From positions 1-46,131 of the IMG/VR virus record IMGVR_UViG_3300037882_000817: 46,131 nucleotides of DNA, one strand, 5' to 3'. Under the pieces are notes generated by a model, which saw only the letters and a program-made list of their open reading frames with translations, was not told where the DNA came from and made no database searches. The DNA is from a virus. Position 1 is the stretch's first letter; each line of letters begins with the position of its first letter. A program made the translations under genes and the position numbers. Positions 10,169 through 32,541 of the stretch are shown here, one piece after another.

Positions 10169-10523
10169 TGCCCATCTCCTTGTCGATTGCGGCGCGGACC
10201 GTTGGGCGATTTGGCACAAGGAACGCAGCATGAACGAGGGCGAACCGCGTGGTCAGTCTGGCGTTGGGAGCCTCACCGCGCACAACACACGACTCCGCGT
10301 CTTTCTCAAGCCAATCCAGCCGCGCCGTATCCCGCGCCAGCGCTTCGATGTCGAGCCAGCCGTCGAGGTCGTCGTCATCGTATGCGCGTGCGCCCAACTC
10401 AGCCCAGCAGCTATCGTCGCCGCATTCATCCCACGTGACTGACGTTAGATATCCCAGACGCATCGCGTAAATCTCTCGCCCGTCGCGCGGCGCGGTGGAC
10501 ATTGGTTGCAGGGGGAGGGTCAC
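10155..10523 (-). CDS. DUF551-like hypothetical protein
   Basis: This 122-residue protein begins near MSTAPRDGREI, a motif typical of small phage DUF551-like proteins, then has an acidic centre (AYDDDDLDGWLDIEAL) and a helical C-terminus. It starts at GTG 10523 in a GTGA overlap. Family function is unknown. Confidence 0.65.
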   Translation of the reverse strand: MTLPLQPMSTAPRDGREIYAMRLGYLTSVTWDECGDDSCWAELGARAYDDDDLDGWLDIEALARDTARLDWLEKDAESCVVRGEAPNARLTTRFALVHAAFLVPNRPTVRAAIDKEMGNGNA

Positions 10524-10840
10524 TTTTTACGCTCCGTGTCCTGCCAGAATGCCGCCGAGCAGTTGGCACAGCGGACCATGAAATCATGTACTCCGCTATC
10601 GATCACTTTCCTTGCCATCGTCCCGCACACGGGGCACTCGCCGTTCGCTGGCTTACACCTGTCTCCCAAGATCTTCCAGCACACTTTATTGATTGCCGGT
10701 GGCGTGCCCTTGAATATCTGTGCCAGCGCGGCGCGACGCGCGATATCTTCGCAGACCTTCGGATCAGAGCTGCCACATGTGGGTATTGCCACTTGCGCAG
10801 CCATCGGCAGGCCGAGGAATGTTAGGAAGCGGCGGGTCAT
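10520..10840 (-). CDS. Zinc-ribbon protein with signal-like N-terminus
   Basis: This 106-residue protein begins MTRRFLTFLGLPMAAQ, which resembles a short Sec or twin-arginine-like signal (TRR followed by FLTFLG) ending in AAQ. The C-terminal half has CPVCG and CANC, an evident zinc ribbon, with further cysteines before it. A signal on a zinc ribbon is odd, and the N-terminus may simply be a hydrophobic helix. ATG 10840 makes an ATGA overlap. It could be an exported metal-binding protein or a cytoplasmic nucleic-acid binder. Confidence 0.6.
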   Translation of the reverse strand: MTRRFLTFLGLPMAAQVAIPTCGSSDPKVCEDIARRAALAQIFKGTPPAINKVCWKILGDRCKPANGECPVCGTMARKVIDSGVHDFMVRCANCSAAFWQDTERKK

Positions 10841-13665: not shown

Positions 13666-14096
13666 TAAACAAACTCTCCATTCCTTCGCTTCTGGTAAGC
13701 GATCTCTGTTTCAAGTTCCGCGATCTTTACGTGGAGGTCGTCGACGAGTTGGTTTTGAATCGCTTCGTGATTGGCCAGGTAGACGGCTTTTCGGTACTCA
13801 TCGAAATCAAAATCATAGAGCCACTTGCGAGCCATCGCCTCTTGCCATCCGCCATTCAGTAGTCCTTGAATGATGTATCTGGCGCGGTCGCGTACCATAC
13901 CGCCAAAGTTCCACGCGACATCGTTTTCAAATGTGCTATAGATTGACCCGTAGGCTTTGTCGGTTATGTCTTTGACAGCCTTATCGACGGCCTCTTTGAG
14001 CTTCGGCTCAATGATTTCGCGGAACTTGTCGGCAGTGGCGTTTGTTTCCGCTACGTGCTCCTCGGCGTGGGGAGTATCGGTGAAGTGGTCCATCAC
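13665..14096 (-). CDS. Hypothetical helical protein
   Basis: This 143-residue acidic protein is mostly helical, with a lysine/aspartate-rich helix near residue 30 (KLKEAVDKAVKDITDKAYG) and a C-terminal coiled coil. No motif is recognised. Four- and three-base overlaps join it to its neighbours. Confidence 0.6.
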   Translation of the reverse strand: MMDHFTDTPHAEEHVAETNATADKFREIIEPKLKEAVDKAVKDITDKAYGSIYSTFENDVAWNFGGMVRDRARYIIQGLLNGGWQEAMARKWLYDFDFDEYRKAVYLANHEAIQNQLVDDLHVKIAELETEIAYQKRRNGEFV

Positions 14097-19336: not shown

Positions 19337-19582
19337 TCAAAATCGCCAACTGCTCATCGTCCAGCAGCGCGGAGGAAAGTCGTGCGGGCGGCGGCGAGCA
19401 TCGAGCCATAGCCGCTCCCAATCAGAGCGGAGAGTGTCGCGCTCGCGGGCGAGGCGGGCTACGACGCACTCGCAACAACGTCCACGCGAAACTCTACCAG
19501 CGCCGAAACAGCGCCTACACGATCCCGCGCCTAGCGCGAGGTGGTGATAATGCGGTGGGATGTCACTGTACTGTGATCTCAT
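19337..19582 (-). CDS. Possible small zinc-finger protein at end of late operon
   Basis: This 81-residue frame overlaps the end of the 138-residue gene by 20 bases. It carries CRRCFGAGRVSRGRCCEC, which resembles half of a DnaJ-type zinc repeat, and an arginine-rich helix. The ribosome-binding site is weak and the C-terminus is low in quality, so it may or may not be expressed. Confidence 0.45.
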   Translation of the reverse strand: MRSQYSDIPPHYHHLALGAGSCRRCFGAGRVSRGRCCECVVARLARERDTLRSDWERLWLDARRRPHDFPPRCWTMSSWRF

Positions 19583-19979
19583 CGGCCACTACGATATCAT
19601 CGGCGGCCCATGGTGTCTTTGGTGTCGCGCGGCCAGCGGAGAGCGTGTAGTCAATCCCAGCGGTCATCAGTAGGCCGTTGCGGAAGATGACGCCGATGTC
19701 GCTCAACGGGTACGATCCGTCAGCCGCCGCCATAACCTGCGCGCGGACCCGCGCGATGCGCAGCGCAGGCGCTGGCGTTGGAGCAACGTCAATCACCCAG
19801 CCGCTCGCCGTCATCGTGACCGTGAAGCCAGGCCCGAGCGTGACAGCCTGGAATCCCTTACCTGACGTATATGCGAGTAGAACCGGCTTTGGCGCGTCTG
19901 GCGGCGCTGCGCGTAGTTGGTCGGGCTTGATGGAGGTTTGCGCGTAGAGCGTAGCCGTGGCGATCAGCAAGAGCCTCAT
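19563..19979 (-). CDS. Secreted-looking late protein with Sec signal
   Basis: This 138-residue protein begins MRLLLIATATLYAQ, a short Sec signal with a probable cleavage before or after the glutamine. The mature part is beta-rich, with GFTVTMTASGWVIDV and VIFRNGLLMTAGIDYTL segments like receptor-binding or carbohydrate-binding modules, and it contains no cysteine. It overlaps the 159-residue gene by ATGA. It is part of the late adhesin block. Confidence 0.65.
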   Translation of the reverse strand: MRLLLIATATLYAQTSIKPDQLRAAPPDAPKPVLLAYTSGKGFQAVTLGPGFTVTMTASGWVIDVAPTPAPALRIARVRAQVMAAADGSYPLSDIGVIFRNGLLMTAGIDYTLSAGRATPKTPWAADDIVVADEITVQ

Positions 19980-20455
19980 TGCACCGCCGCCTCTGTCTCG
20001 GCGTTGGCCTGTGTCACGGCGGCATTGATCGCCGCTTGGCGTTGCTGGCGCACGACGGCGCGCATGGCGTCGACGATGATGGCCTTCCCGAGCGCGTTGA
20101 AGGTCTTGTACTTGAGTTCTGATACTTGCGCGTCAGTTGCGTGAATCGCTGGCGTCGTCCCGTTCGCGCCGCGAGTGACTGTGAGGACGTTGCCGGACTT
20201 CGCCGTTACTTGCAGGTGCTCGCTGTCGATGACAATGGCGGCGGCGGGGCCGATGCCCTGCGCGTTTTCGACCGTGAGCGTCACGGCTACAGCGCTGATT
20301 CCAGTTGTGAGTTTTGACGACACGCCGGTCGTCTGCCCCGCCATCCACGCGGTGAGCGCGGCGGTACCGTTTGCGTCCAGCGTCACGGCTGGCGCGTTGA
20401 CCGTCGCCTGAGAATAAGCAGCGATTGACGCCGCGACAATGATGAGTGTTTTCAT
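19976..20455 (-). CDS. Secreted-looking late protein with Sec signal
   Basis: This 159-residue protein starts at ATG 20455 after AAGGAG. It begins MKTLIIVAASIAAYSQ, a typical short signal. The mature part has LTTGISAVAVTLTVENAQGIG and VIDSEHLQVTAKSGNVLTVTRG, a fold common in small phage fibre-accessory domains, and a helical C-terminus. It has no cysteine. It directly follows the large fibre gene. Confidence 0.65.
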   Translation of the reverse strand: MKTLIIVAASIAAYSQATVNAPAVTLDANGTAALTAWMAGQTTGVSSKLTTGISAVAVTLTVENAQGIGPAAAIVIDSEHLQVTAKSGNVLTVTRGANGTTPAIHATDAQVSELKYKTFNALGKAIIVDAMRAVVRQQRQAAINAAVTQANAETEAAVQ

Positions 20456-20463
20456 ATTTCTCC

Positions 20464-23400
20464 TTAGAAAAGTGCCCTGTATGCGTAAGCATCGGCGGCG
20501 TCTTTCGTGCAAACTCGGAACGTGTCAGCCACTCCAGCGCCGCCCTGGACCATGGCGAGCTTCCCGCGATTCGATGAATTGCAGGTCGGCTCGGCCACGC
20601 TACCCCATTGCGGGATCGTGTCGCCAGCGATAGCGAATCCGAGCGTTCCGCTGCCAAGCGTAGCGTTGTTGGCGCGCCACTCCGTGAGGTTGGTGGTCGA
20701 TTGCCCAGCGCCTGCTTGAATGATTTCGCGGGTTGCGCCGGTTGTGGCGGTGGTGTCAAAGATCGCGAGGTCCACGCCGGAGACTTGGCCGTTGTATGCC
20801 GTTGCGCCAAAATTCCACTGACCTGTTGCTTCCATCCTCGCGGAAATAACCCCTGAGCTAGAAGCCCCAAACGTGAATGCGGGGCGAGTCGATAAATTTG
20901 CGAGTGTTCCGTTTAGCGGGTCGCCGGAGACCTGGAACGCCTGAAACGAAACCAGAGAAGTTGTGCCAGTGTCATTAGCGGAGGTAGTTAATCCACGAAA
21001 AACTAGCCCTTCTCTCGTTGATCCGCTTCCGATGCCTACGGTCATTGGGACAAAAGCCGTATCCGCTAAAGTTGCGTTCCCTAAAATAAGTTCCGCTCCC
21101 GACGCATCGGAAACCGTGGCGCGCCAAACAGCCTCACGCACACCAGCCTGTGACTGTATACTGCTCACAAACTGCCCATACGCATCGATTGCTAGCCGAT
21201 CCGCCCCATTTACTTCTGCCTGGATCAGGTTCCCGGTGAAACCAGAAGGCGCGTTGATGCAAAACTCCTGCCCTGCCGACGATCCAGACGCAATCGCCGC
21301 CGTACCAGCGGTCAACGCGCACCGCGTAGCCGACGCAGCCGGTGTTACCCCGATTCGTAATTCCCCCGCGTTCGGTTCGCTCGTGCTTTCGATCTCAGAC
21401 GGTGCCGTTCCCGCGCCGCCCCATCGCACCAGCGTTCCCGCAGTACCTGCCGCCGACGATGCCCACGCCGTGCCAGACGAGAAGTACGGAATCCCGCCGC
21501 TCGTACCGGCAATCGTGAATGCTGGCGTGGTCGTCGGGTTGGCAATTGAGACGATCCCGCCAGTCCATCCGACACTAGTGACCGTACCGCCGCCACCTCC
21601 GCCGGCCCCCAGCGCCACATTCGCGCCGTTGATCCGCGCGGTCAGTTCGTTCGCCGCCGAGTCGTACCAGAGATCGCCGTTCGAAGGCGCGGATGGGTCG
21701 CCCGCTTGAGATCCCACGTTGATCCCGGCGTTCGTGCCGTCAGGGTTGAACGTCTGGCGAACGCCGTCTGGGAATGTGATCGCGCCGGTCAGCGTCAACG
21801 TCGAGAGCGTTGTCGCGCCCGCAAGCGAGTTGGTCGCCGCGCCCTCCTGGACGATACCCCGGCAGGTGGTGATACCGGAGCCGCATTGATCGGAGACCAG
21901 GATGCCGGTGCGCGTGGTGATCGTGCCGCTTGAAACTGGTGTATTCACGCCAATCCCAACCGCCGATGTCAGTGTCCCGGCGAGGTGTAGCAGGTTCTCC
22001 GAATATCCAACATACGTTGGGATCGTTACCCCGCTCGCAGAGATCGCAAATAGCGAATCGTACCCAGCCATGCCACGCCCGCTGGGATTCGATGCAGGCG
22101 CCCAAATGAGGGTGTTGGACACCCCGATTGCGTGATCGGTCGTCTGCACTTGAGTGTCGCGCAGCGTCAGCGTCGTCGTGTCCACGTCCCTGTCGATCAT
22201 GGACTCGTTGCCGATTGCCATGTGCCCAGAGATGAACAAGCCGCCGAGGTTGACGGATTCCGTTTCCGAATTGGTCGATTGCTCCCAGGTGTTAGTCGTG
22301 TAGCAGTAATGCCAGACCTTCGCGTCCGTCTCGTAAAAGCGGTCGCCGAGTGTGCATGTTCCCGGTGTTGCCGTGCCGGTGGTGTAGCTAATGCCCTGCG
22401 TTTGCGTGATCGTTCGAGTGTAGAAGTCGCCGCTCGCGTCCCTCGCCACGATGGCCGAATTCGTCGCCGCGCTTGCGGCGGTTGTATTGGCGTTCGGCAG
22501 CACGCCGGTGACTTCGGTGGTCAAGTCCACGTCCGCGCATCCCTCCGCCGCGCCCGATGCGTCGACGCCGCGCGGGATGTTACCAGAGCAGTTCGCGCCG
22601 TTGGCCGCTAGCGCGGATGCGGTCGAAGCGTTGCCGGTGAACGCTGCTGCTTCCATTGTGGCGAGCGCGGAATCGGCGGCGTTCCGAACTTGCATGGTGC
22701 CGGACGAATTCTTGATCCGTGGGCCGCTAGCGCCGCTATCGATCTGAAACGAGGTTGCCGTGGTGCCGGTATCGGTGTTCTGTGTGTGCCCGCCGCCCGA
22801 TACGGTCGCCCAGGTGCCATCGCCGCGCAGATACGTCGTGCCGTCCGCCGTGCCGCTGCCGAGCCGCGCCGTGGGGACCGTGCCGCTCGCGAGATCCGAA
22901 GCGCTGCCGCTTGTCGCAATAGTCGCCAGCACCGTGCAGTTTTCCGACGCGCCAGAGGCGTCGACGCCGCGCGCATACGATCCAGCCGAACAGTTTGCTC
23001 CGTTCGCGGCGAGCGCCGTCGCCGTGGCGGCGTTGCCCGTGGTGCTGCCCGAGGAGCCGCTCACGTTGCCTGTGACGTCGCCCGTCAGGTTGCCGCTAAA
23101 TGTGCCGGTGGTCGTGCCGGGTAGCGTCGGGTTCGTCGGGATGCTGAACGTCGGCGCGCCCGCCACGCCATCGCCGTTGGTGACCGTGATCTGGTTCGCT
23201 GTTCCGGTGAGCGTTCGCGGCGTGTATGTCGCCGCTCCGGTACGCGAGAGTATCCCGGTCGTCGAGAGCGCCGCAACCGCCGTCAGATCCGCATCAAGCG
23301 GCTGCTTGGCGTCCAGCGCGGCCTGAAGGTCGGTTTGATCCGAGAGCGTGCCTGTGATCGCGCCCCATGCCGCGCTGCCGCCACCAGAGGCGTTGATTGT

Positions 23401-24492
23401 CGTTCCCGTGATCGACAAGTTCGTCCCGAGCGTCAGGTGCGTGTACGCGCCTGCGCTGTCATCCCAGAACAGGATGCGGTCCGCGTTGGGATCGGCTAGC
23501 GCCGCGATCTGCTGGACCTCCGTATCAAACGCCAGCACATCAGTCCCGATCACCAAACCTAGCGCCGTTCGCGCCCCGCTGGCCGTGGACGAGCCGGTTC
23601 CGCCGCGAGATACCGCAAGGGTGCCAGCCCAGGTCAAGACGTGCGCATTCGATCCGCTGACGATGGTGACGTTGGTGTCGTTCGTGAAGGTCTGGGTGCT
23701 GCCGGTCTGCGAGTTCAACGAGGTCAGGCCAGATCCGCCAGCCGCGCAGCTATCCGGCCCCCATGTCGCCGTGGTCGTGTCGTACACGAGGCACTGGCCG
23801 TCCGTCGCACCACCGCCGTTGAGTTGCGAGAGGGTGAACATCACCGTAGGACTCGGAACAGTCGTCGCGCGGATCTGGTAGAGCTTCGTATCGCCCGCCG
23901 TCACGTCCCATGTTTCTAGCCAGCCAGTACCACGCGAGGGCGTGAATCGTGCGCTGTACGACGTACCCGCTGGCGTTATAGCGCTGTTGGTGTAGAGCGT
24001 GATCGTCACGACGCCCGCTGATAGTTGCGCCGAGCAGTCGCCGCCGGTGACGCCAAGACAGAGCGTGTACGACCAGCCCGCGAGCGATGTCGTCCCGCTG
24101 TAGAGCGGTTGCGCCGATCCCGGAGCGTTGAGCGTGACGACGATCCTGCCCGTCCACGCCGCGCCGCCGACCGAGGAGGTGATGGCGTCGGAGATCGTGG
24201 CGGTCTGAGCGTGCAGCGCCGCCACAAACAAAAGCGGCAGGAAATGTTTCGCCGCCCACGCCACGCCGCCGCCGATCAGCGCGGACGCCGCCGTTATCGC
24301 CTTCCATGCGCCGCGAGCTTCGGCTACCTTGTCCTTCATCATGTCGTGAGCGTCTTCGAGTTTCGACACGCGCCCGTTTTGCTTTGCGATCTGCTCCTTG
24401 ATGTTTTCGAGCTTCTCGTCATGTCGGCCCATTAACTCGCGGATATCGCCGAGTGCTTCCCGCAAATCGTCCATTGTCATGGCTCCCTGCAT
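20464..24492 (-). CDS. Large tail fibre with coiled-coil/membrane N-terminus
   Basis: This 1342-residue protein is a fusion. Residues 7-60 are a charged coiled coil (RHDEKLENIKEQIAKQNGRV), 63-96 are hydrophobic and end LLFVAALHAQ like the signal peptides of its neighbours. The rest is a tail-fibre sequence with SRGGTGSSTASGARTALG, YLRGDGTWATV and two related blocks around ANGANCSAGSYARGVDASGA. Many cysteines occur in the fibre part. The first 95 residues resemble a XhlA/holin-associated protein and might be a separate gene whose stop was lost, with the fibre starting at an alternative codon near residue 85. Confidence 0.75.
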   Translation of the reverse strand: MQGAMTMDDLREALGDIRELMGRHDEKLENIKEQIAKQNGRVSKLEDAHDMMKDKVAEARGAWKAITAASALIGGGVAWAAKHFLPLLFVAALHAQTATISDAITSSVGGAAWTGRIVVTLNAPGSAQPLYSGTTSLAGWSYTLCLGVTGGDCSAQLSAGVVTITLYTNSAITPAGTSYSARFTPSRGTGWLETWDVTAGDTKLYQIRATTVPSPTVMFTLSQLNGGGATDGQCLVYDTTTATWGPDSCAAGGSGLTSLNSQTGSTQTFTNDTNVTIVSGSNAHVLTWAGTLAVSRGGTGSSTASGARTALGLVIGTDVLAFDTEVQQIAALADPNADRILFWDDSAGAYTHLTLGTNLSITGTTINASGGGSAAWGAITGTLSDQTDLQAALDAKQPLDADLTAVAALSTTGILSRTGAATYTPRTLTGTANQITVTNGDGVAGAPTFSIPTNPTLPGTTTGTFSGNLTGDVTGNVSGSSGSTTGNAATATALAANGANCSAGSYARGVDASGASENCTVLATIATSGSASDLASGTVPTARLGSGTADGTTYLRGDGTWATVSGGGHTQNTDTGTTATSFQIDSGASGPRIKNSSGTMQVRNAADSALATMEAAAFTGNASTASALAANGANCSGNIPRGVDASGAAEGCADVDLTTEVTGVLPNANTTAASAATNSAIVARDASGDFYTRTITQTQGISYTTGTATPGTCTLGDRFYETDAKVWHYCYTTNTWEQSTNSETESVNLGGLFISGHMAIGNESMIDRDVDTTTLTLRDTQVQTTDHAIGVSNTLIWAPASNPSGRGMAGYDSLFAISASGVTIPTYVGYSENLLHLAGTLTSAVGIGVNTPVSSGTITTRTGILVSDQCGSGITTCRGIVQEGAATNSLAGATTLSTLTLTGAITFPDGVRQTFNPDGTNAGINVGSQAGDPSAPSNGDLWYDSAANELTARINGANVALGAGGGGGGTVTSVGWTGGIVSIANPTTTPAFTIAGTSGGIPYFSSGTAWASSAAGTAGTLVRWGGAGTAPSEIESTSEPNAGELRIGVTPAASATRCALTAGTAAIASGSSAGQEFCINAPSGFTGNLIQAEVNGADRLAIDAYGQFVSSIQSQAGVREAVWRATVSDASGAELILGNATLADTAFVPMTVGIGSGSTREGLVFRGLTTSANDTGTTSLVSFQAFQVSGDPLNGTLANLSTRPAFTFGASSSGVISARMEATGQWNFGATAYNGQVSGVDLAIFDTTATTGATREIIQAGAGQSTTNLTEWRANNATLGSGTLGFAIAGDTIPQWGSVAEPTCNSSNRGKLAMVQGGAGVADTFRVCTKDAADAYAYRALF

Positions 24493-24513
24493 TGGTCTGT
24501 ACTCCTGATTTCA

Positions 24514-24753
24514 TCAGTGCTTCGGCGGGTCTTGCGGCGAAGGCCGCGCCGGTGGTTTTCCGTGCCCAAGTGGATATTGCGGCATCGGCTCATGCCCACT
24601 TGGTTCGTAATCTTGCGGACGCCTCGAATACAGCGCGCCCAGCGCAACGACCGCCGACGCCACCGAACTCACTAACTTGTCGTCTGACGAGACGAGCGGC
24701 GCGGCGGCTCCGGCTGCAAGGGTGAAGGCGATCTTGAACCAGCGGCGCTTCAT
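24514..24753 (-). CDS. Candidate holin (small membrane protein)
   Basis: This 79-residue protein starts at ATG 24753 in an ATGA overlap. A basic N-terminus (MKRRWFK) precedes two hydrophobic stretches (IAFTLAAGAAAPLV and VASAVVALGALY) separated by a short acidic turn, and the tail is proline-rich and polar. The size and shape suit a class II holin and the place, beside fibre genes at the end of the late operon, fits lysis. No endolysin is identified to pair with it. Confidence 0.5.
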   Translation of the reverse strand: MKRRWFKIAFTLAAGAAAPLVSSDDKLVSSVASAVVALGALYSRRPQDYEPSGHEPMPQYPLGHGKPPARPSPQDPPKH

Positions 24754-25187
24754 TGCTTGACCCAAAAGCCCTTGAATGGCGTCTCGCGACTGTAGAGAAA
24801 CTTCATGCCGTTCACTTCGCGCGGTTCACCGGTTTCGTGCATCTGGTTTGTCCGGTCGTAATAGCTTCGCGTGGTATAAGGAATCAGCGCTCCAATGCCT
24901 TGTCCAACCTCCCCTGCGACGTCTTTCGGCATGTAGTCGGCTGGGGTTCTATCGGAGCATGGAACATTCAGTAACTCGAACCCGCCCTCCGGGAATGAGT
25001 CCGTTTTTGGTCGTCTCTTGCGTTCGGCCGTCACCGTGACCGGAGGCTGCCCTGTCTTGATTGCGTTTTTGGCCGCGTTGTCGCAGGCGGTCTCGTGGTT
25101 GTCCGAGTTCAACTCATTGATGACATCGGCGGCTTCCTGTTGGGCGGTATAGAACCGTGCAATGTACTTCTCATCAACTGAAAACAT
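24750..25187 (-). CDS. Hypothetical late protein near holin candidate
   Basis: This 145-residue soluble protein starts after AAGGAG. I see no known lysozyme, amidase or peptidase motif. It has three cysteines, a basic linker (TAERKRRPKTD) and a C-terminal tyrosine-rich part (ALIPYTTRSYYDRTNQMHET). Its position between the secreted protein and the holin candidate makes it a possible lysis or virion-accessory protein. Confidence 0.55.
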   Translation of the reverse strand: MFSVDEKYIARFYTAQQEAADVINELNSDNHETACDNAAKNAIKTGQPPVTVTAERKRRPKTDSFPEGGFELLNVPCSDRTPADYMPKDVAGEVGQGIGALIPYTTRSYYDRTNQMHETGEPREVNGMKFLYSRETPFKGFWVKQ

Positions 25188-25209
25188 TCTTCACTCCTTT
25201 TGTTCTATT

Positions 25210-25926
25210 CTACTTTTCTTCAACCAGGACCTGAACACCGACCGTCTCCCAGTCCATATCCGCGAATACAACAGCGGCCACGCGCCGCCCAGACGGTTGC
25301 GTGTACGGTTCAGCGAGGTACGAGAGCGTTTCTTCGCCACGCTTGGCGGTCACACGCACGGCAACGGCGCTCTGATTGCGCGGGTCGACGAAGACCTGCG
25401 TGTACTTGCCGGACGCGGGCATTCCGGTTAACTCGCGCAGCTTGTCGAAGTCCACGCACGAGGTGTAGTATTCGGCGGTAGCGGTGGACGCTTGGATGCC
25501 GCAAGCGGTGGGCTTGGGTTCGTCCTGCGCCGCCGATTTGATCTGAGCCAGAGGTAGGTTCGTCGGATTGAATTTATCGATTTTCACTTCGCTCGACCGC
25601 ACGACAAGCCGCTTGTCTTTCGCGTGATATTCGAAGTTCTCGTGATAGATGGAGTTGAAGCCACGCGCGTCCATCATTTTGTCGTTGATCCGCGTTCCAG
25701 ACGGCCCCATTTCGTATTGAACATCGACGCCCGGCGCTACGATCACTGGGTACGTGGTATGGTCGGACCACGGCCCGCAGTACCCGGTCGTGACCGTCTG
25801 CGCCATGCCCGGCCCGTCGCAGACGGTGTTGCAGCCGTCGCCTGCCGGTCGGCAATTGCGCGGCGAGTTGCCCTGCCCGAACGCCAGCGTGGCGGAGGCT
25901 ATGATTCCGATGATTCGATGTCTCAC
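25210..25926 (-). CDS. Cysteine-rich secreted-looking protein with Sec signal
   Basis: This 238-residue protein starts at GTG 25926 (GTGA overlap). It begins MRHRIIGIIASATLAFGQ, a clear signal. The mature N-terminus is rich in cysteine (NCRPAGDGCNTVCDGPG and GYCGPW), and two more cysteines occur later, so disulphides in an oxidising compartment are likely. No family is recognised. It could be an exported accessory protein, an envelope-acting protein or a virion protein displayed outside the cytoplasm. Confidence 0.7.
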   Translation of the reverse strand: MRHRIIGIIASATLAFGQGNSPRNCRPAGDGCNTVCDGPGMAQTVTTGYCGPWSDHTTYPVIVAPGVDVQYEMGPSGTRINDKMMDARGFNSIYHENFEYHAKDKRLVVRSSEVKIDKFNPTNLPLAQIKSAAQDEPKPTACGIQASTATAEYYTSCVDFDKLRELTGMPASGKYTQVFVDPRNQSAVAVRVTAKRGEETLSYLAEPYTQPSGRRVAAVVFADMDWETVGVQVLVEEK

Positions 25927-26207
25927 TTTTTAACCTCGGCTTTCGGCGCGGACGGAATGGGCCGCTCGTAGACGAACCCGGCGCGCGGATCGACGGCGCA
26001 AGCGGGCATCGGGATTCCGGCCTTCGCGCAGATCGATGCGACTACGGCCTCGTAGCGGAGCTGGATGTTTTCGAGTCGGAGCGAATCGGCTTCTTCAAGC
26101 TGAAAGCGCTTCATTGGTTCCGGTTTCGGCGGCGCGGGTTTCGCGGCCTCCGGTTTGTCTTGCGCGGCTAAAGTGAGCGCCGCGAGTGTGAATGCTAGTT
26201 TTAGCAT
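25923..26207 (-). CDS. Small secreted-looking protein with Sec signal
   Basis: This 94-residue protein starts at ATG 26207 after CAGGAGG, overlapping the spike stop. It begins MLKLAFTLAALTLAAQ, then a proline/lysine/alanine-rich stretch (KPEAAKPAPPKPEP), then a helical domain with two cysteines. This layout (signal, flexible proline-rich spacer, helix) resembles small spanin outer subunits or periplasmic linkers, but no lipobox is present. Confidence 0.65.
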   Translation of the reverse strand: MLKLAFTLAALTLAAQDKPEAAKPAPPKPEPMKRFQLEEADSLRLENIQLRYEAVVASICAKAGIPMPACAVDPRAGFVYERPIPSAPKAEVKK

Positions 26208-28798
26208 GTGCCTCCTGTTAAAATCCCATTGCCAAAGATCAATGTGCATGTGCCGGTACCGGCTGCGTCCCGAACGGTTTTAGTGACGGACAAGCCATTT
26301 GATCCATTCGACTGAAGATTGCCGCCAGATAGAATATCGAGCGAGCCACCGGACGGTATATCCACTTGCAAAAAATAACCGTAATCAAAATAAATGCTGT
26401 TCCCGCGAGTAGCAATAGCCCCAATGTTGTACGTACTGCCCGTTCCGAACGCTATGTTCCCTGCAAATGTCTGTCCTGCCGTGAACGTATTCGCACCGGA
26501 AAACGTTTGCGCGATGTTTGTTCCGGCAATCGTGTAATTCGCGTCTTGAACTGTCAAAGCCCTTGTGGTTGCGGTTGTTAGTCCGTCTACCTCAAAACGT
26601 ACTATTTTCGTAGCATCGGCAGAGCCTTTTACTATCGCGGTCGTATCTACAACCGGAAGAGAACTTGAACCACAGCCAGTGCAAGTACCAGAAACATTCA
26701 AGTCAACAAAGTACCCAGTCAACCAGCGATTCATAGACGCGCCAATATTGTAAGCCGATGCAGTCTGCGGCAGCATGTCTGAGTTTATCTCGTTGCCGAA
26801 ATTCACATCTCCATTGAATTGGATCTCGCCACTTACAAGCGTAATCATGGCCGTGTTGTTTCGCTCGATAACGACGTTCGCAGCGGTGTTCGTTCCGATA
26901 GTGGGTGTGACGACTTGATCGAAGTATCCAGAGCCGTAGCTGTAGGACGAATCACCAATCGACCCAAGCCCAGTGAATCCAGGCCGAAGCGTTCCGCTCA
27001 TCGTGTTGATCGAGCCGCTCAGCGTCGCGTTACCACCAACAACCAGAACATCGTCAATCGTCACGTCATCGTTGACGATTGTGATTGCGGTTTCGTACCC
27101 ACCAACTCCCGTCGCTGTTTGAATCGTGACCTCCTCCGAAGAGAAGGTATTCGAGGTATAGCGCCCGCAAATCCGGCCAGCCACATATACAGTCGATCCA
27201 ACTGAATCCGTCGCCGACATCGCATAACAAGCGCCGTAAGCGCCAGTGTACGCGTTCTCGGCTACGACAGCGTTATAAGTGCTCGGGTCGTCGACACTGA
27301 AGTCTCCGAGATGGCCGTACAGCACGGACGGGCGAAGCGCGTCTGTGCCAACCGAGTAAGCATCGTCTGCGCCAGGGACCCAGTTATAAGACGAGTCGAT
27401 CTCCCACCGCAGGCCGGGCACATACGGCGAGCCGGTCGTTAATCCAGTCTCGCCAAAGAACGCCATGCGGCCCTGCGAGAGCCGGAGGATAGACGCCTGC
27501 GTAGCCCGTGGAATGAAGTTCGTACCATCCCACTCGATGCCCGCCATAAACCACGCCTGGTGGTCCTGCGCGGAAAAGAGGTATGCCCCACCCGTCGAGG
27601 TGTTCGACATGTGAATCTGCGTCCCGGCCCCCCGCCCATCGATCAGGAAATCCCCGCCGTGAAGCGTCAGGTGTCCGCTGCTGGCGTCGGAGAACTTGAT
27701 TCCGCTCACGCCCGCGTCGTAGATGTTGTCGAAGTTATCGCCCGTGAACGTGACAGGATCAAACCCGCCGATCACGCGGTTGCCGAGGAATGTCGAGCCG
27801 GTGACGTTGAACGCCTGAATCGGCGCGGTCGTCACGGAGTCGATCTTGTTGTCGTTGCAAACGATCCGCGAGCCATACGTGCAGGTCGTGTCGCAGTAGA
27901 AGTCAATGCCAACCGCGCCGCTTTCAATGTGGTTCGAATTAACGATGATATCACCGACGCCGGAGCTTCCGTGAATGTAAATGCACGTCCCTCCCGCCGC
28001 CATCGTCGCCGTGTTGCCGGTGATGATCCAGCCGGTCCCTGGCGTGTTGCGATCAACGCAGTTGAACGGGCCGACGAAAAGGTTGTCTTGGATATGGACG
28101 AAACTCGATTGAATCGATGGCGCGACAACGATGCCCTTGTACACGTTGTCGAACGTCAAGCGGTGAATCGTCGTGTAATCGATCAGTCCGGTTCCAATCG
28201 CGCGAATGCCGATCTGCGAAGTTCCGCCGTTGCCCTTGATCGTGAAGTCGCTGAAGTCCATCGCGATAAACTCACCGCTTGTCGCCACCGTGGGGATATC
28301 GATGATCGTGGCGTTTGTGGTCGAGTAAAGCTGCGAGACATCGCGCCCTTGCCCGCGCATCCCCTGATAGCTCGATGTGAATGTCACCCCGGTGACCAAG
28401 CAAACCCCCGGCGGGAGAACCACGACGCCACGGTTCGAGCCAATCGCCGCGATAGTGGCCGCGATAGCAGCCGTGTCGTCCGTCGCGCCATCACAGACCG
28501 CGCCGTAAGACCGCACGTCGTAATCAGCCGCCCCGCATGTCGCCCAGGACCAAACTCCCGCCGTGGTCCCGGTGAGGCATTGGCCGCTGGTTGTGGGATG
28601 CGCGCTCGGCCAGGTATTCGTAATCGTTGCCGCAAGAGAAGCGTTGCTGCGAAACTGAACCTCATGCGAACCGTTCGCATACTTCTCGCGAAACGCAAGT
28701 ATCCCTGTCGCCGAATCGTCCTGCTTGGGGATGATCGTTCGCTTCACGTCGGACTGAGCGAAGGCTACGGCCGATAGAGTCAGTATGAGGATTCTCAT
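26201..28798 (-). CDS. Pectate-lyase-like tail spike with Sec signal
   Basis: This 865-residue protein has a right-handed beta-helix start, DYDVRSYGAVCDGATDDTAA (residues 92-111), then GVVVLPPGVCLVTG, which is the Pectate_lyase_3 style of phage spikes that bind or cut surface polysaccharide. The C-terminal half has fibre-like repeats. It begins MRILILTLSAVAFAQ, a signal peptide, and contains about fifteen cysteines, both unusual for a virion spike. ATG 28798 makes an ATGA overlap with the tail-tip gene and has AAGGAAGG eight bases upstream, so the signal is inside the translated protein. Confidence 0.8.
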   Translation of the reverse strand: MRILILTLSAVAFAQSDVKRTIIPKQDDSATGILAFREKYANGSHEVQFRSNASLAATITNTWPSAHPTTSGQCLTGTTAGVWSWATCGAADYDVRSYGAVCDGATDDTAAIAATIAAIGSNRGVVVLPPGVCLVTGVTFTSSYQGMRGQGRDVSQLYSTTNATIIDIPTVATSGEFIAMDFSDFTIKGNGGTSQIGIRAIGTGLIDYTTIHRLTFDNVYKGIVVAPSIQSSFVHIQDNLFVGPFNCVDRNTPGTGWIITGNTATMAAGGTCIYIHGSSGVGDIIVNSNHIESGAVGIDFYCDTTCTYGSRIVCNDNKIDSVTTAPIQAFNVTGSTFLGNRVIGGFDPVTFTGDNFDNIYDAGVSGIKFSDASSGHLTLHGGDFLIDGRGAGTQIHMSNTSTGGAYLFSAQDHQAWFMAGIEWDGTNFIPRATQASILRLSQGRMAFFGETGLTTGSPYVPGLRWEIDSSYNWVPGADDAYSVGTDALRPSVLYGHLGDFSVDDPSTYNAVVAENAYTGAYGACYAMSATDSVGSTVYVAGRICGRYTSNTFSSEEVTIQTATGVGGYETAITIVNDDVTIDDVLVVGGNATLSGSINTMSGTLRPGFTGLGSIGDSSYSYGSGYFDQVVTPTIGTNTAANVVIERNNTAMITLVSGEIQFNGDVNFGNEINSDMLPQTASAYNIGASMNRWLTGYFVDLNVSGTCTGCGSSSLPVVDTTAIVKGSADATKIVRFEVDGLTTATTRALTVQDANYTIAGTNIAQTFSGANTFTAGQTFAGNIAFGTGSTYNIGAIATRGNSIYFDYGYFLQVDIPSGGSLDILSGGNLQSNGSNGLSVTKTVRDAAGTGTCTLIFGNGILTGGTC

Positions 28799-31700
28799 GT
28801 AATCGACCTTCCTTTGGCGCTCGCGTGTAGCTCCCATTTTGACGCGGTGTTGCGCACAAAACAATAGACTGAGTAGGTATCTGCGGTTAAGTCTGGGTCT
28901 TCGTTCGAAAGCCCAATGTACTCGGTGTCCCACGTGATCGTTCGACCGCCCGTCGCGTCCTGAATAAACTTCAAAGTGAGCTTCATCCCTTCAACAATTG
29001 CTCCGCCTGTGTAGACCGGATTGGCAGCGGTAACGTTCGCCGTCATTGTCTCTTGCTGGTTCAGCCCGTCAGCAAGATCAGGCGTAACCGTGGCCGATAC
29101 GGTCGCCATCTCGAAGTACCCATCGTTGTTTCCGATTGCCGGATTCGACGCGCCGAACACATATATCTCGCGAACTTTGTTCAGCGAATCGATGGACTCA
29201 TTGCCGCCGCCGTCGAGTAGGACCACCTGGACCAGAACGACGCGCTGATTGTAGTTCGTCACTTCGGTCGAGAGGTAGAGGGTCTCGGCGATATCCGCGT
29301 TGTTCAGGGAATCGCCCGTGACGTTTACCTGCCAGTCCGGCTCCTCGATTATGTACCGCGATGTTGAATCTGGCGTTGAAAGCCATGAACCCTCAATATA
29401 GATTTTCGTTGCCGTGTTGCTGATGATCCGATAGACCTGTCCAGCGCCCGGCCCGGTGATGACGCGCAGCAGGTTGCCGATTTCCTCATCGGTCGTCAAC
29501 CCCGCGCCACCAGCTTCCAGCGTGTTCTGCCAGAGCGCATCGGAAAGATAGTTGCCGCCGCCGTCGACGCCCACCGTCGGCTTCGAGCGCATAATCATCG
29601 CATCGCCCACGGCGACGATGCCGGAAGGGTTCGGGGAGACGGTCAAGACCGCTGCCGTATTCGACGAGACGCGGTAGTTCAAGACGCCGAGATTGCCGCC
29701 CGCCGCGATGCCAAGTATCGAAACGTCGTATCCGGCCCACTGGTTCACCGTCCAGCCCGCGCCGGTGACTTCCAGCGTGTTCGCTCCGACGACATCAACT
29801 GGCTGTCCCCAGACCCCGCTATGAGCCACGCGCTTAACCTTGATTCGCGCCCGGTCCATCTCGGGGTCAGGCATGCCCTCGGCGCACTCCTTGTAGGCTG
29901 TTAGCGTGACGCTCGAAGGCGTTGAGGCGCTCGTTGTGTGCTTCGTCAGGAACTGCGGCGTGTTGCCGCAATAGGCGACGTAGCCGGTCGCCCCGGAAGG
30001 CCAGCCGGTAATCGCGCACGTCACCGTATTCGCCGTTGAAGCGTTCGTTACGACCACCTCGCAGAGCGTCGATGGCGCGCTGACCTTTCCCGTCGAATCG
30101 GTCGCGCAAATTGCGATGTAGTATGTCCTCCCGCTGCCGAGGAAGTTCCCCCCGGTCGATGCGGTTGTTCCTTGCCGCGCGACAATCGGTGGCGCGAGCG
30201 AGGAGAAGATATTGACCGGCCAGTTTCCGCTGATTGCCAGTTTCGTGATGATCGTTCCGTCCGCCGCCGTTTCGTGTTCCTCGGCCAGCGTAAAGGTTTG
30301 ATCCGTCTCGTCAAGTATCGGGTCGCTGGCGTGCGGCGTAGCGCCGGCAGGCCCCCAAGGGTGAGCCGGTCGCTCCAAGCGATTGCGCGCCGAGGTTGTT
30401 GTCGTTGGGTCCGCCTCTTGCCCGTAGGTATCGACGAACCAATCGTCGTTATGGCGCTGCGCGACAAGCTGAACGGTCTCGAAGTCCTTCGACGGGCGAA
30501 CTTGCAGAATCCGCGCGAGCACGTTCGAGATCCCGTAGTGAGCGTTCGAGATTCTGACAATGTGCCCGGCCCGGACACGGACGGCCCGGAAAGAATCGCG
30601 CCACGAGAAGACTTCCGTTCCGCCACTATCGTTTCGTGGATTGCCGTACAGGTTTCGAGCGAGTCTCCGCTTACTGATCCGCTTCGCTTGATCGAACGTG
30701 TTGACGCCTTCGCAATCGAAGCGCTCGACAACTTCTTGACCGGCCAGCGCCGATGCGTTCGTATCGAGCCGTGATATCGAATCCGCCGCGTAGTCGCGCT
30801 CGGAATTAGTGAACTGGAACTCCACGCGATTCGGCGATTGCGAGATTGGCGGCGTCTCGATCTTGAACGTGCTTCGCCCGCCTTCGGTCAGGAACTTTGT
30901 GAAATCATAGGCCGCATAACCGTTCGTCGCGCCGCCCGTCAACGCTTTCGACGATATCGCCGTCGTATAGTTCGATCCATCTACCGCGCTCGGCTGTTGG
31001 CTGGCCAGCGTGCCCTCGATGTAGATGTCGATAAGGCCCGTCGAACTGTTTGGAACAAGCACCGCGCCGCACCCTTGGCGAACGGCCCGGATCGCGTCGG
31101 CGGCACTCCGGCGCTGGTTGATCACGAGACTGCACGAGTACCGCGCGTGGCTTGAAGATGCCCCGAACTGATCGGTATAGGAGATCGAAGCGTCACAGAT
31201 CGCAGCGGCGTCGATGAAGGATTGGATTCCGAGTTCGGAGTACCGCATCCCGGCCCAGACGAGAAGATCCATGATGACCCAGACCGGGTTCGCCGAATAG
31301 GCCGACGAGTATGTCGATGTCCCAGTGTAGACGCGGATCTGCGGGCCTTGCACCAGAACGCGCACGCGCGGCGTTCCTTGAGCCTCCGATACTCGGCGCG
31401 GAACAACGCAAAGGATCGCGCACATCGAACCGTAGGGGTCGCCGTTGCCGCTATAGAACGCGTCTGCGTTCGGCGCTCCGTCGCGGTCGCCGCGATTGAC
31501 GACGTTGTAGCGCAAGAGCGGATCGCGGACGATGTAGTTTGTCCCGCCAGTAACATCGGTTGCCGGTTGAAGTTCAACGTCATTAACGACGACGCGGTGA
31601 ATGTAGTTGACCTCTCCGAGGCAAACAATCGCCTCAAAGCGAGTCGAGTTCCCGTCGCCGAAGATCGGCATGACAATCGGATCGACCCATGCCGTTCCGT

Positions 31701-32541
31701 AGACCATCGGAATCGGGTTCCCGTATCGCGCTTCGTTCGGGTTGCCTTGGATATCGAGCCATTTGCCAGACGTGTATTCTCGGCTGCGAAACGCCGTCTG
31801 CGCCTCGTATTGCGAGCCGCCGAACCGCCCGGTAACGCGGGAACTTGAATCGAGCTTATACATACCTCTAGCCACGCAAGCGGCCTTCGTGTAATCGCAC
31901 GTCGTGTACGCCGTTACGCCACTCTGATAATTCCCTCGCGCGTTGCCTCCCGTAGCATCGGGAGAATAGCCGCAAGCGAAGTACGGCGAGTCTTCGTTGT
32001 CCGCTCCGTCCTGCCGTTGCGCGAGCGTCGATGGCAAGAGCCACGGACAGCGGCGTTGGAGCGGGACCGGTGGAAGTGTTCGGCGCTGCAAGCTGAGTTT
32101 GTTGGTCGCCGAAAGCGTCAACGTCGTTTCGTCGGATCGCGCCGGATCGCAAACGCCAACAAACTTGGCGATAGAATCGCTTGAAAACGTCGCCGAGTCA
32201 GCGTCCCACAGAAGAAATGTCAGCGATAAAGTGGCGTAAGCGAAACCCTTCACGTCCTCGTAGCCGGTCTTGATCGCCTTGTCCGGGTCGGCGATTGTGA
32301 TATCGGCCTTCGGAACGATATCGATTCCTCCGGCGTCGAATCCTTGAATCGCACCCAGGTTGTAATCCAAGATCCGCCCGTCATAGTTATTGCCGCCGTA
32401 TTGGTAGCCGCCTTGCGCGGTCGAAAGTGGCTTCGAACACAGACGTAGAACGCTGGCGTCGGTGAACGTGATAACCGCCAAGAGAAGCGGTTGGTACGTT
32501 TCGACAGAATCCTTCGCGGCGTTGATGGTTGTGAGCGCCAC
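28795..32541 (-). CDS. Tail tip protein, gpL/gpJ-like fusion
   Basis: This 1248-residue protein seems to join two lambda functions. The first 230 residues resemble gpL, with cysteines at 165 (CPW), 190 (CGYS), 215 and 222 in the spacing of the gpL iron-sulphur site. The following part (about 240-760) resembles the gpJ hub that forms the tail tip, and the remainder has repeated domains of fibronectin type. Separate K and I genes are absent. It starts at GTG 32541 with a weak ribosome-binding site and ends in the ATGA overlap with the spike. It should set host contact at the tail end. Confidence 0.75.
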   Translation of the reverse strand: MALTTINAAKDSVETYQPLLLAVITFTDASVLRLCSKPLSTAQGGYQYGGNNYDGRILDYNLGAIQGFDAGGIDIVPKADITIADPDKAIKTGYEDVKGFAYATLSLTFLLWDADSATFSSDSIAKFVGVCDPARSDETTLTLSATNKLSLQRRTLPPVPLQRRCPWLLPSTLAQRQDGADNEDSPYFACGYSPDATGGNARGNYQSGVTAYTTCDYTKAACVARGMYKLDSSSRVTGRFGGSQYEAQTAFRSREYTSGKWLDIQGNPNEARYGNPIPMVYGTAWVDPIVMPIFGDGNSTRFEAIVCLGEVNYIHRVVVNDVELQPATDVTGGTNYIVRDPLLRYNVVNRGDRDGAPNADAFYSGNGDPYGSMCAILCVVPRRVSEAQGTPRVRVLVQGPQIRVYTGTSTYSSAYSANPVWVIMDLLVWAGMRYSELGIQSFIDAAAICDASISYTDQFGASSSHARYSCSLVINQRRSAADAIRAVRQGCGAVLVPNSSTGLIDIYIEGTLASQQPSAVDGSNYTTAISSKALTGGATNGYAAYDFTKFLTEGGRSTFKIETPPISQSPNRVEFQFTNSERDYAADSISRLDTNASALAGQEVVERFDCEGVNTFDQAKRISKRRLARNLYGNPRNDSGGTEVFSWRDSFRAVRVRAGHIVRISNAHYGISNVLARILQVRPSKDFETVQLVAQRHNDDWFVDTYGQEADPTTTTSARNRLERPAHPWGPAGATPHASDPILDETDQTFTLAEEHETAADGTIITKLAISGNWPVNIFSSLAPPIVARQGTTASTGGNFLGSGRTYYIAICATDSTGKVSAPSTLCEVVVTNASTANTVTCAITGWPSGATGYVAYCGNTPQFLTKHTTSASTPSSVTLTAYKECAEGMPDPEMDRARIKVKRVAHSGVWGQPVDVVGANTLEVTGAGWTVNQWAGYDVSILGIAAGGNLGVLNYRVSSNTAAVLTVSPNPSGIVAVGDAMIMRSKPTVGVDGGGNYLSDALWQNTLEAGGAGLTTDEEIGNLLRVITGPGAGQVYRIISNTATKIYIEGSWLSTPDSTSRYIIEEPDWQVNVTGDSLNNADIAETLYLSTEVTNYNQRVVLVQVVLLDGGGNESIDSLNKVREIYVFGASNPAIGNNDGYFEMATVSATVTPDLADGLNQQETMTANVTAANPVYTGGAIVEGMKLTLKFIQDATGGRTITWDTEYIGLSNEDPDLTADTYSVYCFVRNTASKWELHASAKGRSIT

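Follow-up and report, generated by a model that had tools for sequence, protein, structure and literature searches.

Tailed phages are assumed to synthesize their tail adhesins, and to mount them, inside the cytoplasm, and we know of no textbook tailed phage that folds its adhesins outside it. Virion proteins that pass through Sec before assembly occur in filamentous phages (coat proteins pIII and pVIII), but these phages are assembled at the membrane without lysis and have no tail. Late proteins with Sec signals are also encoded by phage lambda (Lom, Rz, Rz1, and Bor), in which lom is located between J and the side-fibre genes. However, none of the four is a tail fibre or spike, and the lambda fibres lack a signal. 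The nearest functional analogues of the proteins described here are the MAT adhesins of Bdellovibrio and, among phages, exported non-fibre proteins such as Lom. MAT fibres are trimeric, phage-tail-fibre-like adhesins with an N-terminal signal peptide that a Gram-negative cell exports (PMC10769870). Compared by description, they differ from the proteins reported here in being encoded by bacterial genes and in sharing, in all MATs, a conserved beta-rich domain of ~130 aa after the signal. Among cultured phages, signal-bearing, Cys-rich spike and fibre genes are present in Tunturi 1, 2, and 4, members of a group (Tunturi 1 to 5) that comprises the first reported cultured viruses of Acidobacteriota (PMC11924767). 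Among the non-subscription papers searched, none described tailed phages whose tail fibres or spikes bear signals, or a secretion strategy of this kind. A preliminary description of this DNA had suggested that the strategy could be largely undescribed.

The window analyzed here, a whole virus record of 46131 bases, is from a soil phage that is siphovirus-like. Its lambda-like head genes (terminase, portal, a capsid-protease fusion, and head decoration) are followed by a tape measure gene and a gpJ-like hub gene, with the adhesin block directly behind the hub on the minus strand. The stop codon of the hub gene overlaps the ATG of the spike gene (ATGA). The features referred to below are:

28795..32541, minus strand, signal-less gpJ-like tail hub of 1248 aa (weak, sub-threshold match to Phage-tail_3)
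26201..28798, minus strand, spike, 865 aa, pectate-lyase-like (PF12708, 29.7 bits vs. a cut-off of 27), N-terminus MRILILTLSAVAFAQ
28757..28798, minus strand, signal region of the spike, codons 1-14
25923..26207, minus strand, 94-aa accessory protein, N-terminus MLKLAFTLAALTLAAQ, signal MLKLAFTLAALTLAA
25210..25926, minus strand, 238-aa accessory protein, N-terminus MRHRIIGIIASATLAFGQ, signal MRHRIIGIIASATLAFG, C-terminal beta domain
24750..25187, minus strand, 145-aa protein, no signal, homologous to cassette proteins in relatives L034 and L031
24514..24765, minus strand, 83-aa hydrophobic small protein, putatively holin-like from its sequence and position
24241..24492, minus strand, XhlA-like domain, in one reading frame with the fibre, a gene of its own in relatives
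20464..24240, minus strand, residues 85-1342 of the fused ORF, the fibre proper, with the remnant fibre signal LPLLFVAALHAQ at its start
19976..20455, minus strand, 159-aa tail-type protein, N-terminus MKTLIIVAASIAAYSQ, signal MKTLIIVAASIAAYS
19563..19979, minus strand, 138-aa fibre-tip-like protein, N-terminus MRLLLIATATLYAQ, signal MRLLLIATATLYA

Sec-type signals open five proteins within 19563-28798, and their N-termini are present exactly as first reported. Signals were scored with a home-made scorer based on a positive n-region, an uncharged hydrophobic core of 8-12 residues, and small residues at -1 and -3. The five proteins scored 11.0 to 14.9 (14.9 for the spike, with signal MRILILTLSAVAFA and predicted mature start QSDVKRTIIPKQDDSATG), and the remaining called genes of the window reached 9.1 at most. 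Scores of at least 11 were thus obtained for 5 of ~62 called genes, all within the 8-gene block (hypergeometric 9e-6). A weak signal-like start outside the block (MTRRFLTFLGLPMAAQ, 10520-10840, minus strand) scored 9.1. In a 50-kb E. coli test, the scorer recovered 5/5 known signals and also flagged two membrane proteins; on lambda it flagged Lom, Rz, Rz1, Bor, and RexB, and it flags some membrane anchors as well. At the level used for the window it flagged no fibre of lambda or crAss001, and the crAss001 spikes, considered as a precedent, were rejected as they scored no signals.

All five N-termini have the n-region, core, and small -1/-3 residues of Sec and signal peptidase I substrates. The residue following the small residue is Gln in every case, and not the +1 Cys after a lipobox that marks lipoproteins. 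Likewise, neither the spike nor the fibre has a C-terminal membrane beta-barrel match in Pfam as would be expected of autotransporters (type V). Each of the five genes has an RBS-like site that places the signal inside the translated protein, as originally proposed. No convincing alternative start that skips the signal was found, i.e., no later in-frame start with a good site within 150 codons, the sole exception being a TTG inside the signal of the 138-aa protein.

The signals recur in related phages, where the preliminary description had suggested looking for them. Five contigs that are 71% identical to the window in the hub have a spike gene behind it, and the signal is kept in all three spike versions that were aligned with that of the window. 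The core residues of these N-termini (e.g., MRILLYIIAAGLAFGQSQNELKIIPKQDDSATG) vary, while the charge, hydrophobic core, and Q are kept; just past the varying signal, IIPKQDDSATG is invariant in the aligned relatives. A second phage lineage with other hubs contains the same cassette, in the order spike, 94-aa-like, 238-aa-like, small proteins, and XhlA-like protein, followed by a second fibre and its partners; signals are present there on the spike, the 94-like and 238-like proteins, the second fibre, and a 118-aa protein. A search with the mid-spike domain gave 39 loci, of which 24 encode signal-started fibres and 14 encode fibres with an N-terminus of the ordinary phage type, the last one being truncated (24/38 with a readable 5′ end). 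Counterparts of the 94-aa protein, whose mature part contains one Cys pair, have the same position and layout in L024, L031, and L038. No relative of the 238-aa protein was confirmed with that protein alone as query against viral contigs, nor did we find cultured phage relatives of the window spike; in a fold prediction of the 238-aa protein, the C-terminal domain alone was confident (pLDDT ~80), with no significant PDB match. Homologues that start past the hydrophobic segment, named beforehand as evidence against export, were found for one protein and not among the aligned spikes: the homologue of the 159-aa protein in L024 (15088-15531) has no signal and begins at the expected start of the mature part, so not every cassette member needs one.

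Hydrophobic N-termini could also remain uncleaved and, with no export, serve to anchor the adhesins on the tail hub or become inserted into a target membrane, the N-terminus being where tail fibres attach. However, the same signal start occurs with different hubs, and at least five proteins with no detected mutual similarity share the charge, the core, and a small-x-small-Q ending, as signal peptidase substrates do and unlike a docking motif. The signal also goes with Cys pairs (see below), and we regard docking as unlikely.

The large fibre had been reported to contain LLFVAALHAQ at residues 87-96, and the motif is indeed found there in the ORF 20464-24492. Comparison with relatives indicates that this “internal” signal is the result of a fusion of an XhlA-like gene and the fibre gene, since the fibre in relatives is a gene of its own starting with MKKLLLFLGALAAYGQ or similar, and the XhlA-like protein ends at its own stop. 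The fusion in the window might be real (a deletion) or an assembly fault; other genes, including a metallophosphoesterase-like one, are located between the XhlA-like and fibre genes of relatives. If it is real, the XhlA-like helix would act as a signal anchor, with release of the fibre still possible at the A-Q site. The window domain is called XhlA-like with no Pfam match to XhlA (PF10779) and with a PHROG hemolysin match at 0.0028 only; its homologue in L018 reaches 27.6 bits vs. the PF10779 cut-off of 34.7. XhlA-like and holin-like genes are present in the window, and no endolysin was recognized among the genes searched against PHROGs, which covered the small early genes in part. With the whole window fibre as query, no relative was confirmed among viral contigs; only the query with its N-terminal domain was successful, and the fold prediction of that domain was of too poor quality to use. 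In L020, the second fibre frame begins near 14007 just past a stop, at QVTISDTL, with the signal missing or in another frame, possibly due to a frameshift.

Cysteine content provides a second line of evidence. The spike, previously credited with about fifteen cysteines, contains exactly 15, the 238-aa protein, described as cysteine-rich, contains 6, and the fibre contains 16, every one past residue 96. A small fibre domain, NGTNYVG...LPxADGTSGQxL, is shared by 80 loci in our search. Its Cys pair is present in 8/8 signal loci and in 0/72 loci with no signal (Fisher 3e-11, which is descriptive only, because the loci are related and the counts are not independent events). In the signal loci this domain lies ~35 to 45 residues from the start; in the signal-less loci it is free of Cys and is usually preceded by a longer N-terminal domain, which most signal fibres do not have. 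Homologues of the second fibre have a signal in 19/19 loci. The number of mature cysteines is even in 13/13 distinct complete signal-bearing second fibres and in 10/13 spikes, as expected for disulphide pairs, with the window spike (15 Cys) being an exception. Cysteines alone are no proof of export, as disulphides can reach tailed virions by other routes: phage Milano, described with a contractile tail, is reported to have disulphide-linked tail proteins and a virion disulphide network (PMC10811340).

We consider it probable that the spike, the fibre, and their small partners are exported via host Sec, cleaved before Gln, and form disulphides as they fold in the periplasm. The Cys-pair association, the even Cys counts, and the signals in Tunturi phages make export, with probable disulphide formation, our preferred reading of the locus. 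Export of the adhesin set, as initially suggested, is well supported by the conservation in relatives, the Cys-pair match, the even counts, and the cultured acidobacterial phages. The internal signal of the fibre has to be reinterpreted as a gene fusion. Counter-evidence consists of the odd number of spike cysteines, the hub, which is Cys-rich (19 Cys, 1.5%) yet has no signal, the signal-less 159-aa homologue in L024, and Tunturi 3 (see below). The reading relies on our scorer and on sequence, and the loci counted are related to each other. The proposed sequence of events is that the host Sec pathway would export the adhesins, signal peptidase I would probably remove the signals before Gln, oxidation in the periplasm would allow folding with disulphides, and part of the set would join tails once lysis mixes periplasm and cytoplasm.

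The destination of the exported proteins is the least certain part of this reading. We think that joining of part of the set to tails at lysis is most likely, as the spike follows the hub in the way receptor-binding proteins do, with secretion of a free adhesin or depolymerase only slightly less probable. In the latter case the exported proteins would not be virion parts at all; they would be free agents (a depolymerase, decoy, or exclusion factor) at work in the periplasm, at the cell surface, or once lysis has occurred, and the signal-less hub would bind the receptor. We give this alternative appreciable weight, though we doubt it on balance. In its favor, the signal fibres mostly lack the longer N-terminal domain, presumably the one for attachment, the window spike is pectate-lyase-like, the exported outer-membrane protein Lom is encoded between J and the side fibres of lambda, and secreted phage-fibre-like adhesins exist in Bdellovibrio (PMC10769870). 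Yet several large signal-bearing proteins per phage are encoded directly behind the hub, the usual place of receptor-binding proteins, and passage through the outer membrane before lysis needs a route, for which no autotransporter domain was found in Pfam.

In favor of the export reading, the same pattern is seen in cultured Tunturi phages. Tunturi 1 and its relative Tunturi 2 have signals on gp12, gp13, gp14 (annotated as tail spike or pectin lyase), gp16, and gp17 (annotated as virion structural protein), and the mature proteins of Tunturi 1 contain 20 (gp12), 10 (gp13), 20 (gp14), and 32 (gp17) cysteines. The siphovirus Tunturi 4 has signals on gp113 and gp114. Tunturi 3, which has the same host as Tunturi 1, has no signals on its annotated fibres; the comparison covers Tunturi 1-4. 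Tunturi 1, 2, and 4 differ from the window in having podo- and siphovirus genomes whose proteins show no detected similarity to the spike or fibre of the window. We found no mention of the signals in the main text of the Tunturi paper (PMC11924767).

The A-x-Q form accounts for 20/30 predicted signals on a Granulicella plasmid and for 2/7 E. coli signals, a sample too small for comparison. The suggestion that the host has A-x-Q signals is therefore consistent with the plasmid. As the signal form is common on an acidobacterial plasmid, it points to an acidobacterium as the probable host of the window phage. No relative of the spike start or hub was found in genome contigs that would link the phage to a host or prophage.

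The same resemblance raises the question of whether the signals are hitch-hikers with no role, carried along when fibre genes were taken from secreted proteins of the host, and phages beyond the Tunturi group contain no relatives of its gp14 and gp17. We find this quite improbable: the signals persist even though their residues change, it is only in these phages that domains homologous to ordinary phage fibres bear signals, and neither Tunturi gp17 nor the N-terminus of the signal-started fibre yielded a plasmid relative.

On the export reading, a broader proposal can tentatively be made, to which we give somewhat less than even weight, that in tailed phages of Acidobacteriota the receptor-binding spikes and fibres are made in the host periplasm (Sec, signal cleavage, and disulphides), the virions being completed only when lysis brings the exported adhesins together with tails from the cytoplasm. 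If whole adhesin sets of soil phages do pass through Sec, these phages must either complete tailed virions outside the cytoplasm or secrete large fibre-like factors, and either would be new. Host prediction would be affected because signal style may point to Acidobacteriota, and the proposal is testable now because cultured phage-host pairs (Tunturi 1, 2, and 4) exist. Annotation would be affected too, in start codons and fibre calls. The annotated start of the tail fibre gp111 of Tunturi_4 (PP885687; L168, 12077-12434) seems to be set too far downstream: from a TTG further upstream in the same frame, which has a ribosome-binding site, the protein begins with LNRISKAIGLCALALSVGSSYGQ and gains a signal.
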